Positions 5,308 to 26,473 of a DNA stretch of 35,154 bases are shown here, piece after piece (positions within the stretch are counted from its first letter, which is position 1; every line of letters starts with the position of its first letter). Source of the DNA: Actinomycetes bacterium (GTDB lineage: Bacteria; Actinomycetota; Coriobacteriia; Anaerosomatales; Anaerosomataceae); assembly GCA_021373175.1 (NCBI GenBank), contig JAJFTE010000137.1, forward strand, positions 1 through 35,154. The letters are read 5' to 3'. Under the pieces are notes generated by a model. It had not been told where the DNA came from, did no database searches, and saw only the letters and a list, made by a program, of their open reading frames with translations. Made by a program: the position numbers and the translations under genes.

Positions 5308-6131
5308 CAGCGCACTGCCATAACGAGAAAGCACGATGCGCCGAGCAACTCGCGGAACCCGCTCTTAGCGTACAACGCACGTGACGGCACGTTCTCCTCC
5401 TGCGTATAAAGCGTCACAGCCCGGGCGCCAGCCCGCGCCATGTGCGCCACCGCGTCGCCGAGCAGCAGGGAGCCGATACCGTGGCCCCGCTCCTCGGGCA
5501 GTACCGCCAGGCGTCCGAGCATGCCTTCGCCCCGGTTGACGGTGCACAGAGTATAGCCGATGACCGAAGCGCCCCGCACGGCCACGACCGCGCGCTCAGA
5601 CACGAGATAGCCGCGAAGCATACGCGCGTCGAACCGCCAGAACGCATCGAAACACGTGCTGTCGAGAGCCGCTATCGCCGCGACGTCAGGCAACCCGGCA
5701 ACTGAAAGATCGACCCCGTCCACCGCCGTGGGCGCGGTGCCAGCCGCCCTGTCGAGGCGCAGGGTGATCCCCCGGTGTATGACCTCCATCCCGGCAGCCA
5801 GGTACGGCTGGACCATGCTCTCCGGAACAAGTGGGCTCAGCACGCCCTCGAAGCCGTGCGTCCGCGCGAGCCAAACGACGTCCCCGATAATCGCGGGGAT
5901 GTCACGCTCGGCGCACCACAGTCCCTGTATCGCAAGCAGCCGCGAATGATCGCGCCACGCGCCCAGCAGCGCAGCGTCGCCCGCTTCGCTCACCTGAACG
6001 CGCCACGGCGCCTCATGCCAGGCGGCTTCGAATTCCGCGCGGCCGGCGAAGGTGCGCGTCGGGCGCACAGCGCCCCAAACCGCTCCGAGGTCGCGTTCGC
6101 CAGCGGTTCGCATCGCGTGCAAGCGAATCAC
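5307..6131 (-). CDS. GNAT-family N-acetyltransferase
   Basis: Predicted acetyl-CoA-dependent acyltransferase of 274 residues, longer than a single GNAT domain of about 150. The C-terminal half (about 140-274) is clearly GNAT: a LAVLPEERGHGIGSLLL segment carries the R-x-x-G-x-G acetyl-CoA pyrophosphate loop, followed by the YTQEENVPSRALYAKSGF block common near the end of the fold. The N-terminal 130 residues may be a second, diverged GNAT half, as in tandem-domain family members. The substrate is unknown. The GTG start at 6131 overlaps the TSUP stop as GTGA and its stop overlaps the kinase start, so it sits inside a tightly coupled cluster. Confidence 0.8.
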   Translation of the reverse strand: MIRLHAMRTAGERDLGAVWGAVRPTRTFAGRAEFEAAWHEAPWRVQVSEAGDAALLGAWRDHSRLLAIQGLWCAERDIPAIIGDVVWLARTHGFEGVLSPLVPESMVQPYLAAGMEVIHRGITLRLDRAAGTAPTAVDGVDLSVAGLPDVAAIAALDSTCFDAFWRFDARMLRGYLVSERAVVAVRGASVIGYTLCTVNRGEGMLGRLAVLPEERGHGIGSLLLGDAVAHMARAGARAVTLYTQEENVPSRALYAKSGFRELLGASCFLVMAVR

Positions 6132-6925
6132 AACACGCCTGCCTCGGCAAGCGCAAGCGAGACGCCGACCAGCAGCAACAGCACCGCGAATGCGATCTTG
6201 ATCGCACGCTCCCCCGCGATCGCTGTGATCTTCGCGCCGATGAGCGCGCCGGGCACGACCCCGAGTGCCAGCAGTCCCGCGAGCCCAAGATCGACATGCC
6301 CGAGAAGCGTGTGCGTGATGCTGCCGGGGATCGAAAGCAGCGTGACGACGACAAGCGACGTGCCGATGGCTCGCTTGATGTCAAAACCGAACCAGCGCAC
6401 CAGGGCGGGCACAACGATGAAGCCACCGCCGAGCCCCAGGAAGCCCGAGTACAGTCCGGTGGTCACGCCCAAGACCGCGAGACCCCACCAGCGGTGCTGC
6501 ACGACACGGTGCGGCTCGGCGGGGAGCGCCACCAGCTCCGGCGGCGCGGTAGGCGTGCGCAGCGCGAGGAACATCATGTCGATCGACATGTAGCCGATCA
6601 CCACGGCCGTGGCATACATGAGGAACGTGCCGCCGACGATGCGCGTGGCGAGCGCGCCGGCGACCGACGCTCCCGCTCCCCATGCCCCCATGATGATCCC
6701 GGAACGCATATCGACCAGCCCGCGATGATGATACGACCAGGCACCGGCGATAGCCGTGGGCAGGACCACCGGAAGAGGCGTTCCGACCGCTATGAGTGCC
6801 GGACGGCCAAGCAGCAGTCGGATGGCCGGCGTGGTCACGATACCGCCGCCGATCCCGAACAGCCCGGAAAGCACGCTCGAAACGAAGCCGATCGTGACGG
6901 CCAGCAGGGATTGCGCCGCGCCCAT
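6128..6925 (-). CDS. TSUP (TauE/SafE) family membrane transporter
   Basis: Integral membrane protein of 265 residues with about eight hydrophobic helices. It shows the duplicated TauE/SafE signature: LSGLFGIGGGIVTTPA near residue 20 and YSGFLGLGGGFIVVPAL in the second half. Family members export or import sulfite, sulfoacetate or other organosulfur anions; the substrate here is not evident. The ATG at 6925 overlaps the TAA of the glycosyltransferase gene as TAATG. A longer open frame begins upstream at 7021, but its first 32 residues are Arg/His-rich, lie inside the neighbouring gene and do not resemble the family, so the shorter start is preferred. Confidence 0.88.
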   Translation of the reverse strand: MGAAQSLLAVTIGFVSSVLSGLFGIGGGIVTTPAIRLLLGRPALIAVGTPLPVVLPTAIAGAWSYHHRGLVDMRSGIIMGAWGAGASVAGALATRIVGGTFLMYATAVVIGYMSIDMMFLALRTPTAPPELVALPAEPHRVVQHRWWGLAVLGVTTGLYSGFLGLGGGFIVVPALVRWFGFDIKRAIGTSLVVVTLLSIPGSITHTLLGHVDLGLAGLLALGVVPGALIGAKITAIAGERAIKIAFAVLLLLVGVSLALAEAGVL

Positions 6926-8166
6926 TAGTCCGTCCGGATGACCGGGAAGCGCCCGGTGATGGCACTGCGATCGACCCTGCGCTCGCCGGTGAGCAGCGGC
7001 TTGAGCGCGACGTCTTCCCACAGCCTGTCCGTGAACAGCGGCCAGCGACGCTGGAACACGAAGTACCGCTCGCAGTTGTCCCTGGCAAACGATGACGCGG
7101 CGGCAACCGCCGTGCGCGCGATGCCGAGGTACTCCTTGCGCTCGTGGCCGTGGAGCGCTCGCAGCACAGCGGTCACCCTCGCACGCCAGCCGATGGAGGA
7201 GTCGACGAAGCGGCCCGGATACGGCTCGAGCGAGTCGGGTGTCACCTGCCGCAGGTCCACCTGCGACTTGGAGAACTCGAGCTTGCGGTGCTCATAGATG
7301 AAACGGAACACGTCTTGCCGGAAGGCTCGAGCTTCGCTCGGCAAGGCGGGCGGATGGTGGATGACCGACCATTCGCCGTCCAGGAACACATCGCCACCGT
7401 GCATGCGCGTGTTGATGACGTAATCGATGTCTTCTCCGCGAACGACCCACGGATCGAATGAGACGTTCATGAACATGTCGCGATGAATCGCGAGGCAGCC
7501 GCCGAACGCGACGGCGCTCGGCCGAATCCGCGGCGGTGCCGCTACGACTGCGAGCGCTTCATTGTAGGCATCGTCCTGACGCCAGAACATGTCCGACCAT
7601 GGCGCCGTACCCGCCACCTGATAGCGACCTTCCTCATCGGTGTAGTACCCGCTCTTCGCGAGGACGACTTTGCCACCGGCCGTCGTCTCACCGATGCCTT
7701 CAGCGGCGATCTCGAGGAATCCGGGATCCGTGATGATTTGGTCGTCGTCCACGAACACCACGAGGTCGCAGCCAAGGGTCGCAGCCACTGAGAGGCCGAC
7801 ATTGCGCACCCCGCCGTAACTTGCGAGCCCCACTCCGGGTATCACGTCCGCGAATTCCAGCTGCTCCATGCGCCGGTGCAGCGAGCCCATCTCGGCGGGA
7901 CCGACCACAAGCGAGTCAAGGGCGGGGAAATCGGCGAGGATGCCGCGGACGCGGTCCTCGGCCTCGTGCTCGATCGAGGCGGATGACGCGGCGACGATGA
8001 CGACGACTTTGCCGAGGCCACGCACGGACTCGAGCGAGCGCAGACAACCAGGCAGCATGCCATCGTCATCGATGGGTGTCGGGTGATCATAGACGAATGG
8101 TCCCTGGTCACCGCCACGAACCCGCCTACGGGTCCAGAAAGTCGGTATGACGACGCACGGTTCCAC
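6925..8166 (-). CDS. Glycosyltransferase family 2-like protein
   Basis: Predicted GT-A fold glycosyltransferase of 413 residues. VVIPTFW at the N-terminus is the nucleotide-binding first strand. LVVFVDDDQ near residue 140 holds the DxD-type metal-binding acidic cluster, and RGEDIDYV near residue 245 resembles the catalytic ED motif of GT2 enzymes. No membrane anchor is seen, so it is probably cytosolic or peripheral. The start is chosen at GTG 8166 because AGAAGGAG lies seven bases upstream. A TTG at 8214 would add 16 polar residues without a clear ribosome site. The donor and acceptor are unknown. It follows the selenoprotein-like gene by 48 bases and overlaps the TSUP start by one base. Confidence 0.8.
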   Translation of the reverse strand: MEPCVVIPTFWTRRRVRGGDQGPFVYDHPTPIDDDGMLPGCLRSLESVRGLGKVVVIVAASSASIEHEAEDRVRGILADFPALDSLVVGPAEMGSLHRRMEQLEFADVIPGVGLASYGGVRNVGLSVAATLGCDLVVFVDDDQIITDPGFLEIAAEGIGETTAGGKVVLAKSGYYTDEEGRYQVAGTAPWSDMFWRQDDAYNEALAVVAAPPRIRPSAVAFGGCLAIHRDMFMNVSFDPWVVRGEDIDYVINTRMHGGDVFLDGEWSVIHHPPALPSEARAFRQDVFRFIYEHRKLEFSKSQVDLRQVTPDSLEPYPGRFVDSSIGWRARVTAVLRALHGHERKEYLGIARTAVAAASSFARDNCERYFVFQRRWPLFTDRLWEDVALKPLLTGERRVDRSAITGRFPVIRTD

Positions 8167-8214: not shown

Positions 8215-8868
8215 TCATACCCCCCGGGCACGCTCTGCGCGTGTGCGGTCGTCAGTCGTTCGCGCACACTGCGCCATGACCTCTCGCATCACGCGATACG
8301 GCTGCGTCCCCAGCATGAGACGCGAGCATGCAAACGCCGCCGGCGTCGTGCCCACGCCCAGGCTCAGCGCAAGCTGGGCAAAGGCACGCAGGCGCTCCTC
8401 GTACGTGTCGGCTTTCCACGCTGCGATCACTTCGGCATCCTGCAGCCCCTGCTGCAGCGCGATGCCGAGCAGGACCGTCCGGTCCCCGATGTCGCGACCT
8501 TCGCCGAAATACGCCGAGTAAATCGCCGCATGGACAGCGGCATGAACAGCCGCGCCGTGGTCGCGCGCCACCTCGGCCATCAAGATCGCCAGATGTGTTT
8601 TGGGCAGGTGGTCGGGCAGCACCATGGGCTCACCGGCTTCACGGGCCTGCCGTAGCAGCTGCGCCTCGACGTGCTCCGGATGGCTCAACCCGCTTCCGGA
8701 TGCTGAGACACCTTCCTCGGGCATGTCGGGCCGCAGCTCAAAAGGAATCGGCATGACAGGGACGCCGAACTCCGCACTCAGCTGCTCGTACCGGAACCGG
8801 TCGACGTAGCAGAACGGTCAAGCGTAGTCGAAGAAGAGCAGTACCGGCTGTACCGGCACGCCGCTCAC
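8215..8868 (-). CDS. DsbA/FrnE-like thioredoxin-fold oxidoreductase with in-frame TGA (probable selenocysteine)
   Basis: Probable thiol/selenol oxidoreductase of 217 residues, with no signal peptide and so likely cytosolic. From GTG 8868 the frame reads LLFFDYA, then TGA at 8820-8818 (codon 17), then PFCYVDRF, and runs open to a TGA stop at 8217. FrnE/DsbA relatives have C-P-F-C or C-P-Y-C at exactly this place, so reading TGA as selenocysteine gives U-P-F-C. Downstream family features are intact: PFELRPDMPEEG at residues 42-53 and a late GTTP segment carrying the probable cis-Pro. The GTG overlaps the amrS stop as GTGA. An annotation starting at ATG 8754 would lose the active site. A point nonsense mutation is the alternative, but the intact frame and the adjacent hairpin argue against it. 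Confidence 0.82.
8782..8812 (-). promoter_or_regulatory. Candidate bacterial SECIS hairpin
   Basis: Starting five bases after the in-frame TGA, the minus strand can fold as CTGCT with AGCAG (5 bp), CGT with ACG (3 bp) and ACCG with CGGT (4 bp), separated by a one-base and a two-base bulge on the 5' side. The apical loop is GTTC. The loop lies about 20 bases after the TGA and begins with G. Both features agree with known bacterial selenocysteine insertion elements such as that of fdhF. The element lies inside the coding sequence, as bacterial SECIS elements do. The fold was drawn by eye, without energy calculation. Confidence 0.6.
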
Positions 8869-9872
8869 AGCCCCAACCCGAGCGGCTGGCCGCAGCTGCC
8901 ACAGCTGCCGCCATCGAGGTTGGTCGTGACCACCAGGTAGCCGTCGCGCTCGATCACGGTCCGGCCACACGCCGGGCAGCGTGTGTCTTCGGTGCCCGAA
9001 TCGTTCACATTGCCGAGGAAGACGAAGTGCAGCCCTTCCTCGGCACCGATCTCGACCGCACGCTTAAGCGTCCCGATCGGGGTGGGTGGCAGGTGCGCGA
9101 GCTCGACGTACGGGAAGAAACGCGTGATGTGCCAGGGCGTGTCCGGACCCAGGTCTCGCGCGATCCACGCCGCGATCCCGCGAATCGTCTCCTCGTCGTC
9201 GTTGATCGTGGGGATGACGTTTGTGACGACCTCCACGTGCATCTGCCAGGTCTTCTTCGCCCGCACCGCCATATCCAGCACGGGCTGGACCGAGCGGACC
9301 TTGCACAGGGTGCGGTACGTGCGGTCGTTAAAGCCCTTTACGTCGACGCGCCAGACGTCGATGACCTCCCCGAGCGTGTCAAGGCCCGCCTGCGTGATGT
9401 AGCCGTTCGTGACCATCACCGTGTATAGACCCGCGTCCTTCGCCGCACGCGCGGTATCCAAAACGTACTCGACCCAGATGACCGGCTCATTGTAGGTGAA
9501 TGCCACGCCCTCGCAGCCGTACTGGCGCGCCATGCGCACCGCGTCGACGGGAGAAAGCGGCGTCAGCCCGCCCTCCTCGGGCGCAGCGCGGCTGATCTGC
9601 CAGTTCTGGCAGTGTGAGCAGCGCATAGTGCACCCGACGCTGCCAAGCGAGAACGCCTTTGTGCCCGGCCGGAAATGGAACACCGGCTTCTTTTCGATCG
9701 GATCCACGCAAACCGACGAGACCATCCCGTACGTGAGGGCGATGAGGCGGCCGTGACGGTTCTCCCGAACGCCGCAGACCCCCGTCTTACCGGCAGCGAT
9801 ATGGCAGTCGTGCGGACAGAGCAGGCAATGCACCCGCTCGCCTTCGGCTTCCCAGAGCAGCGCCTCGTGCAT
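8865..9872 (-). CDS. amrS: AmmeMemoRadiSam-system radical SAM enzyme
   Basis: Radical S-adenosylmethionine protein of 335 residues. The cluster-binding C-x3-C-x2-C is at Cys81, Cys85 and Cys88 (GCTMRCSHCQNWQ). The N-terminus carries a further Cys set (C16, C19, C23, C33) typical of this PflA-related family, and the C-terminus adds a zinc-ribbon-like pair of CxxC motifs (CPACG and CGSCG) near residues 303-330. The family is defined by co-occurrence with AMMECR1 and Memo domain proteins, neither of which is in the window; its reaction is not established. ATG 9872 has GGGAGGAG just upstream. The stop overlaps the start of the selenoprotein-like gene, so the two products are probably made together. 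Confidence 0.9.
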   Translation of the reverse strand: MHEALLWEAEGERVHCLLCPHDCHIAAGKTGVCGVRENRHGRLIALTYGMVSSVCVDPIEKKPVFHFRPGTKAFSLGSVGCTMRCSHCQNWQISRAAPEEGGLTPLSPVDAVRMARQYGCEGVAFTYNEPVIWVEYVLDTARAAKDAGLYTVMVTNGYITQAGLDTLGEVIDVWRVDVKGFNDRTYRTLCKVRSVQPVLDMAVRAKKTWQMHVEVVTNVIPTINDDEETIRGIAAWIARDLGPDTPWHITRFFPYVELAHLPPTPIGTLKRAVEIGAEEGLHFVFLGNVNDSGTEDTRCPACGRTVIERDGYLVVTTNLDGGSCGSCGQPLGLGL

Positions 9873-9881
9873 GGCTCCTCC

Positions 9882-11705
9882 CTAACCGGGAGCCAGCCGC
9901 ACCTGGTCCCTCCCGGCGTCCATGGCCTCCTGCAGAGCGGCTGCCGCCGCCTCCAACAGATTCATCGGGTCCGACAAGGTGTCGACTGCGGTTGCCACAC
10001 CTGCCGAGACGCTCAAAGGCCCACCGTCTGTATACCCCTCGGCGTGCGCGAAATCCGCCTCCCGGATCGCGGAGCGCAGCTTCTCGGCAACGGCGAAGGC
10101 AGCGGTCTTCCCCACGCCGGGCAGGAGCACCGCGAACTGATCGGCGACGAACCGCGCCGCCATGTCCGTCGATCGGAGTTCGGACGAGAGCAGTCCGCCA
10201 ACGGAGACCAGCACGCGATCACCGGCGGCCTCGCCAAGCGCATCGTTCAGCGCGCCGAATGCGTCGATATCGATAAGCGCGAGCGAAAGCGGCGCCTTGT
10301 AGCGCCGGTGGCGCGCCACCTCCAGCCCGAGCCGTTCCGCGAACGCCCGGCGGTTCCACAGCCCGGTGAGCGCATCGAGCGTCCGCGTCGCTTCGAGCGT
10401 CTCCTCGGCAGCGTCAAGCCGCTTTCGCTGGAGCGGAAAACACATCGCCCAGGACGAATCGCCGCCAAGGATCGCCGTGGCATGCTCGACACAGGTGTGG
10501 TAGCCGCACGCGCCGCAATCGAGAACGCTCGCGCGCGACGTGAACCCGCCCTCGGCAAGCGCATCGTCGACGTGCGCATCGCTGGGACGCGGAATACGAA
10601 CCGGATCCGCCGCGAACGAACGCACCAGGTCGACCGAGGGCAGGACCCCGAGGAGGGATCGCGTGCTCACACGCGTCGTGCCCGGCATCTCCCGGGCGGC
10701 CGACTCGATCGTGCGTTTCGCGAACAGCGAAAGCCCGGGGCTGACAGCCGGGCCGTCGATGCAGCCTTCGCAGTTGAGCATGTCGACGATCGCCGGCGCG
10801 GTCTCTCCCGAACTCATCGCCGCGAGGAGCCGGTCCAGCGCTTTGATGCCTCTTACGACGTGCACCTGCTGGTTCGTCATGTCGCGCGAGACGAGCGTCT
10901 GCCGGGGAAACCCGTCCGTGAGCGAGATTTCCTTGAAGACGACGGGCCGGCGCGAGCTCGGCTCGGCTGCCCGAGCACGCGCGGGGCGGTGCTCGGCCTG
11001 AACGATGAGCGTCCTGAGCTCGGTGAAGTCAATGGCCGCGTCAACGGCGCCACCGAACTCGGGATCGTACACCTCGTCTTTGCGCGCGTAGCACGGACTC
11101 GCATAAACGATCGCAACGTCGTCCGGATACAGCGAGCGGATGAGACGGGCTTGCGCGACGTACGGCGGTACGATCGGCGCCAGAGCGGGCGTGAGCGCCG
11201 GATAGTACTTCCGCACGAAATCCACGACCACCGGACAGGTCGAGCGCATGACGAAGAGCGCGTCCTCACGGGCGTGCAGCCGTTCGTACTCCTGCGCAAC
11301 CATCTCTTCGCCCAGAAGCGTGCTCTCCACCGAATAGAAGCCGAGCACCGAAAGCGCACGCTCGATCTGCGGCACGGTCATCGGATGGAGGGCCGAGATG
11401 AACTCAGTCGCGAGCAACGCCACCGCGCGACGCCCGCTCCTCAACAACTCGAGCACGATCGGCGTGTCATCCCTCACCACATGACCGTGAGCACCGCACT
11501 CGTTGACGCACAGGCCGCACGACACGCACTTCTCTTGAATGACTTCCGAGTGGCCCTCCACGACCCGGATGGCCTTCACCGGGCAAAGACGTACGCAGCC
11601 CCAACATTCACGGCACGCATCCTTGCGGTGCGAGATGAGCGGCTCTCGAAGCATGCCCTGCATCGCTCCCGCGCCGCTGGGTCCAGGTTCGTGAACAGTC
11701 TCCAT
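9882..11705 (-). CDS. [FeFe]-hydrogenase-like sensor fused to a degenerate GGDEF domain
   Basis: Fusion protein of 607 residues. Residues 31-75 hold two ferredoxin-type 4Fe-4S motifs (CRECWGCVRLCP and CVSCGLCVNEC). Residues about 85-370 are an Fe-hydrogenase large-subunit domain: the three H-cluster regions appear as STCP (Cys157), SPCYARKDE (Cys205) and LNCEGCIDG (Cys312/Cys315). Residues 397-422 match a C-x2-C-x4-C-x16-C iron-sulfur domain. Residues 443-600 are GGDEF-like, but the signature reads VADQF at 520-524, so cyclase activity is unlikely. The first hydrogenase motif has Thr where catalytic enzymes have the proton-transfer Cys, and the last has CxxC instead of CxxxC. This favours sensing over H2 turnover. 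METV at 11705 is chosen because upstream frame lies within queT. Confidence 0.85.
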   Translation of the reverse strand: METVHEPGPSGAGAMQGMLREPLISHRKDACRECWGCVRLCPVKAIRVVEGHSEVIQEKCVSCGLCVNECGAHGHVVRDDTPIVLELLRSGRRAVALLATEFISALHPMTVPQIERALSVLGFYSVESTLLGEEMVAQEYERLHAREDALFVMRSTCPVVVDFVRKYYPALTPALAPIVPPYVAQARLIRSLYPDDVAIVYASPCYARKDEVYDPEFGGAVDAAIDFTELRTLIVQAEHRPARARAAEPSSRRPVVFKEISLTDGFPRQTLVSRDMTNQQVHVVRGIKALDRLLAAMSSGETAPAIVDMLNCEGCIDGPAVSPGLSLFAKRTIESAAREMPGTTRVSTRSLLGVLPSVDLVRSFAADPVRIPRPSDAHVDDALAEGGFTSRASVLDCGACGYHTCVEHATAILGGDSSWAMCFPLQRKRLDAAEETLEATRTLDALTGLWNRRAFAERLGLEVARHRRYKAPLSLALIDIDAFGALNDALGEAAGDRVLVSVGGLLSSELRSTDMAARFVADQFAVLLPGVGKTAAFAVAEKLRSAIREADFAHAEGYTDGGPLSVSAGVATAVDTLSDPMNLLEAAAAALQEAMDAGRDQVRLAPG

Positions 11706-11715
11706 CAGCCCCCCG

Positions 11716-12276
11716 TTACTTCCGCGCCACGCCGAACATGTGCTCGAAACCCAGGCGGCGCAGTGCCGCCAGCACAAGCCCGCCGAGGAAGTAGACCGAC
11801 ACGACCTGGCCGGCGGCAACCGTCACCACACCGAAAGCGTACATCGTCGGCCACGAAGACGCGACATCCAAGCCGAAGAACGTGCGGTCGTAGAACCCGG
11901 TTGCGGCGAGCACGAACGGCAGGTATGCGGGCACGATCAGGGCGTTGGTCACGACCGGGCCGAGGAGCGCGACGCGAGTGCGACCGCGGAAGTGCCTCAT
12001 CCACATCGCCCCCAGCAGCGTGCCAAGTGAGCCGAACACGACATCCAGCAACGCTACGGGCCCGAACTGTGGCAACATCGCGGCGTTCGCGACCACCGAG
12101 CCCAGCGTGAGACCGGGGATGCCCGCCGGCGTAAGACACGCGACAACAGTCACCGCCTCGCTCAAACGAAGCTGCACCGGCCCAAAGCCGATCGGGCTTT
12201 GGATCATCAAGAACGTCAGGACCGCGTAGACCGCGGCGATGATGCCCGCCTGCGCCACGAATCGGGATCGGCTCAC
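11716..12276 (-). CDS. queT: QueT-family membrane transporter
   Basis: Membrane protein of 186 residues with about five hydrophobic helices, matching the QueT family of predicted queuosine-precursor transporters. The N-terminal helix AGIIAAVYAVLTFL and the segment GPVQLRLSEAVTVVACLTPA are characteristic. GTG 12276 overlaps the histidine kinase stop as GTGA and has AAGGAAG upstream. A longer frame to 12360 would run through kinase coding sequence and lacks family similarity. No preQ1 riboswitch can be placed, because the gene begins within an operon. Whether it actually carries a queuosine precursor, or another small substrate, is not visible from sequence. Confidence 0.82.
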   Translation of the reverse strand: MSRSRFVAQAGIIAAVYAVLTFLMIQSPIGFGPVQLRLSEAVTVVACLTPAGIPGLTLGSVVANAAMLPQFGPVALLDVVFGSLGTLLGAMWMRHFRGRTRVALLGPVVTNALIVPAYLPFVLAATGFYDRTFFGLDVASSWPTMYAFGVVTVAAGQVVSVYFLGGLVLAALRRLGFEHMFGVARK

Positions 12277-26356: not shown

Positions 26357-26473
26357 ACGATGCTTCCGGACCGGGCTCCGGACACCCGGCAGCGGCCGCT
26401 TATGGCTGCTTCCTTCCGGACCTGACCAGGTTCGCGACATGCCGTCGCCCGGAACCCGGTCCCGAAGCATCGT
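26357..26473 (-). ncRNA. ffs: Signal recognition particle RNA, small bacterial type
   Basis: The RNA of the co-translational membrane-targeting particle, bound by Ffh. The minus strand contains the universal loop core GGTCAGGTCCGGAAGGAAGC at about 26433-26405. The termini pair perfectly over ten bases (26357-26366 with 26464-26473), and the helix continues through GGACCGGG-type segments, giving an uninterrupted rod of about 117 nucleotides. A TATACT -10 box eight bases before the inferred 5' end supports the start. The ends are inferred from pairing and may be off by a few bases. Its place upstream of dnaX is typical in many bacteria. Confidence 0.96.

Follow-up and report, generated by a model that had tools for sequence, protein, structure and literature searches.

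The gene at 8215-8868, on the minus strand of the window (the whole analysed stretch of 35,154 nucleotides), was predicted to encode a probably cytoplasmic FrnE-type, i.e., DsbA-fold, thiol/disulfide oxidoreductase. Its attacking residue would be selenocysteine (Sec), encoded by an in-frame TGA at 8820-8818. From the sequence comparisons, this reading was given a probability of about 95%. An earlier note had proposed a Sec-containing FrnE/DsbA oxidoreductase, and the proposal was supported by the sel genes of the genome, the codon alternation among relatives, and the fold and profile matches. The features of the locus are listed in Table 1.

Table 1. Features of the FrnE-type locus in the window.
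Feature	Position	Strand	Remarks
Hydrogenase-like large-subunit domain + GGDEF	9882..11819	-	Upstream, same cluster; start approximate
AmrS, AmmeMemoRadiSam radical SAM enzyme (TIGR04337)	8865..9872	-	Upstream neighbour, retained in most relatives
Predicted Sec-containing FrnE/DsbA-like oxidoreductase gene	8215..8868	-	217 codons + stop; frame, Pfam match, alignment
TGA predicted to be read as selenocysteine, residue 17, motif U-P-F-C	8818..8820	-	TGA/TGC/TGT alternation, 38 copies
SECIS-like hairpin	8785..8805	-	Apical loop GGTTCC about 8798-8793, 19 nt past TGA
Glycosyltransferase-like gene	6925..8166	-	Downstream; sequence motifs only; adjoins FrnE-type gene in relatives
TauE/SafE-type exporter	6128..7021	-	Downstream, same cluster

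The minus-strand frame opens with GTG 8868-8866, runs for 16 codons to the TGA at 8820-8818, and stays open for a further 200 codons until the TGA stop at 8217-8215. On re-reading, this was exactly the frame described earlier. The GTG start and the AmrS stop codon (TGA 8867-8865) overlap, and ATG was found at the aligned position in two close relatives. The read-through protein gave one Pfam match only, i.e., DSBA (PF01323, residues 9-196, E 1.7e-21), which spans the TGA. Orthologues from 37 other genomes also align across codon 17, which is either TGA or a Cys codon in each. Because this single DSBA match and the orthologue alignments cross the TGA, the observed frame is more than chance. No relative was found in a viral scan.

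Under the standard code, the ORF is reduced to ATG 8754 to 8215 (179 aa), so the truncated start at 8754 that had been expected was borne out. The existence of this ORF would allow two products, i.e., a short leader peptide with the TGA as its stop, plus the 179-aa protein. However, the short form would lack the active site together with the first strand, both among the best-conserved parts, and the Cys orthologues run uninterrupted through codon 17. The two-product reading was considered extremely improbable.

Codon 17 was surveyed in 69 genomes of the same order, including that of the window, and a copy of the gene was found in 39. The matching contigs were labelled as Coriobacteriia, Anaerosomatales and Actinomycetota MAGs. 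Among the 38 readable copies, window included, codon 17 was TGA in 21, TGC in 10 and TGT in seven, and TAA or TAG in none. The alternation suggested for checking was thus recovered as 21 TGA versus 17 TGC/TGT, and other stops or frameshifts at the site, which would have spoken against Sec, were seen in 0 of the 38. The active-site motif across orthologues was F-[FY]-D-Y-[AT]-[UC]-[PQ]-F-C, and C/U17, C20, T175, P176, C181 and C201 were invariant in the 29 aligned sequences. A maximum-likelihood tree was built from the 38 proteins; on it, seven changes between Sec and Cys are required (6-7 in bootstrap trees), at least two of them forced by strongly supported branches. Some additional stop codons in the survey were dismissed. 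The second of "2 TGA" in L010-L012 is the ordinary end-of-gene TGA, after which the frame continues toward the next gene, and nothing suggests a second Sec; the "1 TAG" of L017 is the normal C-terminal stop, not codon 17.

The TGA could also be a nonsense change or sequencing error in an ordinary Cys enzyme, with the true product starting at 8754 or absent. Outright loss of the gene in many relatives and a C-terminal remnant alone in one indicate that decay does occur at this locus. Nevertheless, 21 genomes from many families have TGA at codon 17 with both flanking frames intact, TAA or TAG never takes its place, and the hairpin downstream is maintained under synonymous constraint. A pseudogene was therefore regarded as very improbable, and the Sec reading was preferred.

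The SECIS-like hairpin covers codons +5 to +11 past the TGA and has up to seven pairs, a single bulged base and a loop of six bases, RGUUCM. The core pairs were formed in 104 of 105 cases in the 21 TGA genes versus 67 of 85 in the 17 Cys genes, and the loop GU was present in 21/21 versus 2/17. The pairing of the TGA genes was matched by none of 2000 synonymous-codon shuffles. One stem pair fails in L084, where re-pairing is possible, and one stem pair showed a double change from C-G to G-C, a single event in one genus. The hairpin agrees with the reported geometry of bacterial SECIS elements, i.e., a spacing of 16-37 nt and a loop of 3-9 nt with G in its first two positions (PMC13188914).

Folding energy was less distinctive. 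With the lower stem left out, the 21 nt of the window fold at -7.5 kcal/mol and some relatives only at -5.2 (bSECIS limit -7.5), and the 67-nt window stretch past the TGA folded no better than shuffles (z -0.06). The support for the putative hairpin lies in the comparison of genes, not in folding energy. At gathering cut-offs, Rfam reported no SECIS in the window. A bacterial small SRP RNA (Rfam RF00169) is located elsewhere in the window at 26366-26461 on the minus strand.

The codon context also differed between the two groups. Codon +8 lies in the loop and was TTC (Phe) in 21/21 TGA genes versus 1/17 among the Cys genes. This pattern would be expected of an RNA constraint on the protein; this Phe may be a residue dictated by the RNA loop. 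The Ala codon preceding the TGA (8821-8823 in the window) was GCT in all 16 Ala cases among Sec genes versus 2 of 16 among Cys genes, against a background of 72/642 Ala codons elsewhere in these genes. An upstream context effect of GCT before the Sec TGA is possible. Of the Cys genes, L031, L033, L036 and L038 retain the full stem without the loop GU, and L023 retains the loop. Because of this leftover structure, a change from Sec to Cys is suggested for some Cys genes, with the tree being unrooted for direction.

The genome of the window (2.15 Mb, 144 contigs, 98.9% complete) was searched for the Sec machinery, and selA, selB, selC and selD were all present. selB, with SelB above the curated cut-off, and tRNA-Sec (selC, anticodon TCA; detected with Infernal as well as ARAGORN) were on contig C124. 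selA and selD were on contig C63, and selD, which was above the cut-off, itself contains an in-frame TGA close to the N-terminus. With SelA, SelB, SelD and tRNA-Sec all in the genome, the absence of selB, selC or selD, named beforehand as counter-evidence, was not observed.

These genes also bear on whether the TGA is decoded as another amino acid, or simply read through, without Sec. The frame alone does not identify the inserted residue. However, the same organism uses TGA as a stop, e.g., at 8217-8215 and in AmrS at 8867-8865, the alternative residue of the relatives is always Cys, and both the Sec machinery and the SECIS-like hairpin are present. Decoding without Sec was judged very unlikely, and insertion of Sec remains the favoured reading.

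In the profile search of draft genomes, a full SelB was missing in 6 of the 21 genomes with the TGA gene. SelB C-terminal pieces, SelA and tRNA-Sec were present in G033 and G067, and SelA in G034. Neither SelA nor a clear SelB was found in the drafts G009, G066 and G068; of the Sec genes searched for, G009 had a Sec-type SelD alone, G066 a SelD fragment with TGA alone, and G068 none. A tRNA-Sec match of G009 above the Rfam cut-off was rejected as tRNA-Ser. Likewise, many genomes gave selB matches of about 200 bits that were assigned to EF-Tu rather than SelB, because their coverage was limited to positions 1-270. Since the TGA genomes with missing sel genes are drafts of 82-96% completeness, the missing genes are likely assembly gaps. 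selA and selB tended toward contig ends in the window's genome (C63, C124), G033, G034 and G067, as if the assemblies break between them.

An AlphaFold2 model built on the 29-sequence alignment had a mean pLDDT of 89.8. Among the best solved fold matches were FrnE of Deinococcus radiodurans (5xwh, TM 0.77, 24% identity) and SCO1869 of Streptomyces coelicolor (3gl5, TM 0.79, 26% identity), and the same two were the best natural proteins in the PDB profile search. The FrnE assignment was borne out by both searches. The protein has the features of PF01323, i.e., the DSBA-like thioredoxin domain, UxxC/CxxC and the Thr-Pro of the cis-Pro loop (T175-P176). It resembles SCO1869 as a DsbA-fold oxidoreductase by fold; SCO1869 itself is listed merely as a probable DsbA oxidoreductase. 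It resembles D. radiodurans FrnE (PDB 5cnw, 5xwh) by fold and profile match, but the first Cys of the CP(W/F)C active site of that enzyme (PMC8945050) is replaced by the predicted Sec. The orthologue alignment also lacks the C-terminal CxxxxC of D. radiodurans FrnE, and two other Cys, Cys181 and Cys201, are invariant in it. CxxxxC occurs in many FrnE proteins but not in all and is therefore no defining feature of the family (PMC8945050).

Based on these features, a catalytic mechanism was proposed. SelB with Sec-tRNA would decode UGA at codon 17. By the established pattern of the DsbA-fold family, position 17 holds the nucleophile that attacks, and Cys20 is the resolving residue. The selenolate of Sec17 would attack a disulfide or an oxidised thiol of the substrate, Cys20 of U-P-F-C would resolve the intermediate, and the invariant cis-Pro loop T175-P176 would shape the site as in DsbA-fold enzymes. 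In vitro, D. radiodurans FrnE acts as a disulfide isomerase and as a reductase, and loss of this protein causes sensitivity to diamide and cadmium (PMC8945050). Greater reactivity would be expected of the Sec form, whose predicted role is probably that of a reductase in the cytoplasm of an anaerobe. The redox chemistry and expression of the Sec enzyme are predictions from sequence.

The gene order, i.e., hydrogenase-like/GGDEF, AmrS, FrnE-type gene, glycosyltransferase-like gene and TauE, was found in nearly all loci. The protein at 9882-11819 of the window has 4Fe-4S and hydrogenase-like large-subunit domains fused to GGDEF and lies beside AmrS across the order. The glycosyltransferase-like gene gave no Pfam match, and its real start is probably GTG 8166, after AGAAGGAG. 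In G067 and G068, the FrnE-type gene is kept and AmrS is missing. AmrS directly adjoins the glycosyltransferase-like gene in 19 of the 20 inspected genomes without a copy, including G004, which belongs to the window's own genus. In the 20th (G044), AmrS is followed by a remnant of some 36 C-terminal residues (L102 301-408) and then the contig end; this remnant is a decayed copy. The Sec enzyme might be a dedicated redox partner of AmrS and the hydrogenase-like/GGDEF protein, the cluster forming one redox-sensing or protein-modifying system with Sec, Cys and gene loss as alternative settings, although this was considered rather unlikely.

DsbA-like selenoproteins of COG2761 were reported in 2005 as nine sequences in the Sargasso Sea set (PMC1088965). 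DsbA-like selenoproteins are also included among the bacterial selenoprotein families (PMC1794560), and the "DsbA-like protein form 1" (PF01323, UxxC) is in the list of a 2026 review (PMC13188914). By description, the present gene is like these in its Pfam domain, UxxC motif and bacterial SECIS type, and differs in lineage and gene neighbourhood. Among open-licence papers, no selenoprotein studies on Anaerosomatales or Coriobacteriia were found. Because COG2761/PF01323 UxxC selenoproteins are already published, the gene adds to a known family; it is a well-supported member in a lineage for which no prior description was found.

The reading of this TGA has a practical meaning for annotation. 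When a gene caller takes every TGA for a stop, the active site of the enzyme is cut off, and so the enzyme would be missed or mis-annotated in the order. Because the gene is linked to AmrS, it offers a testable lead on the role of this radical SAM enzyme. Furthermore, the locus is a good natural series for studying selenocysteine loss, because the Sec, Cys and absent states all occur at a single fixed position in the chromosome and some Cys genes retain hairpin-like traces.
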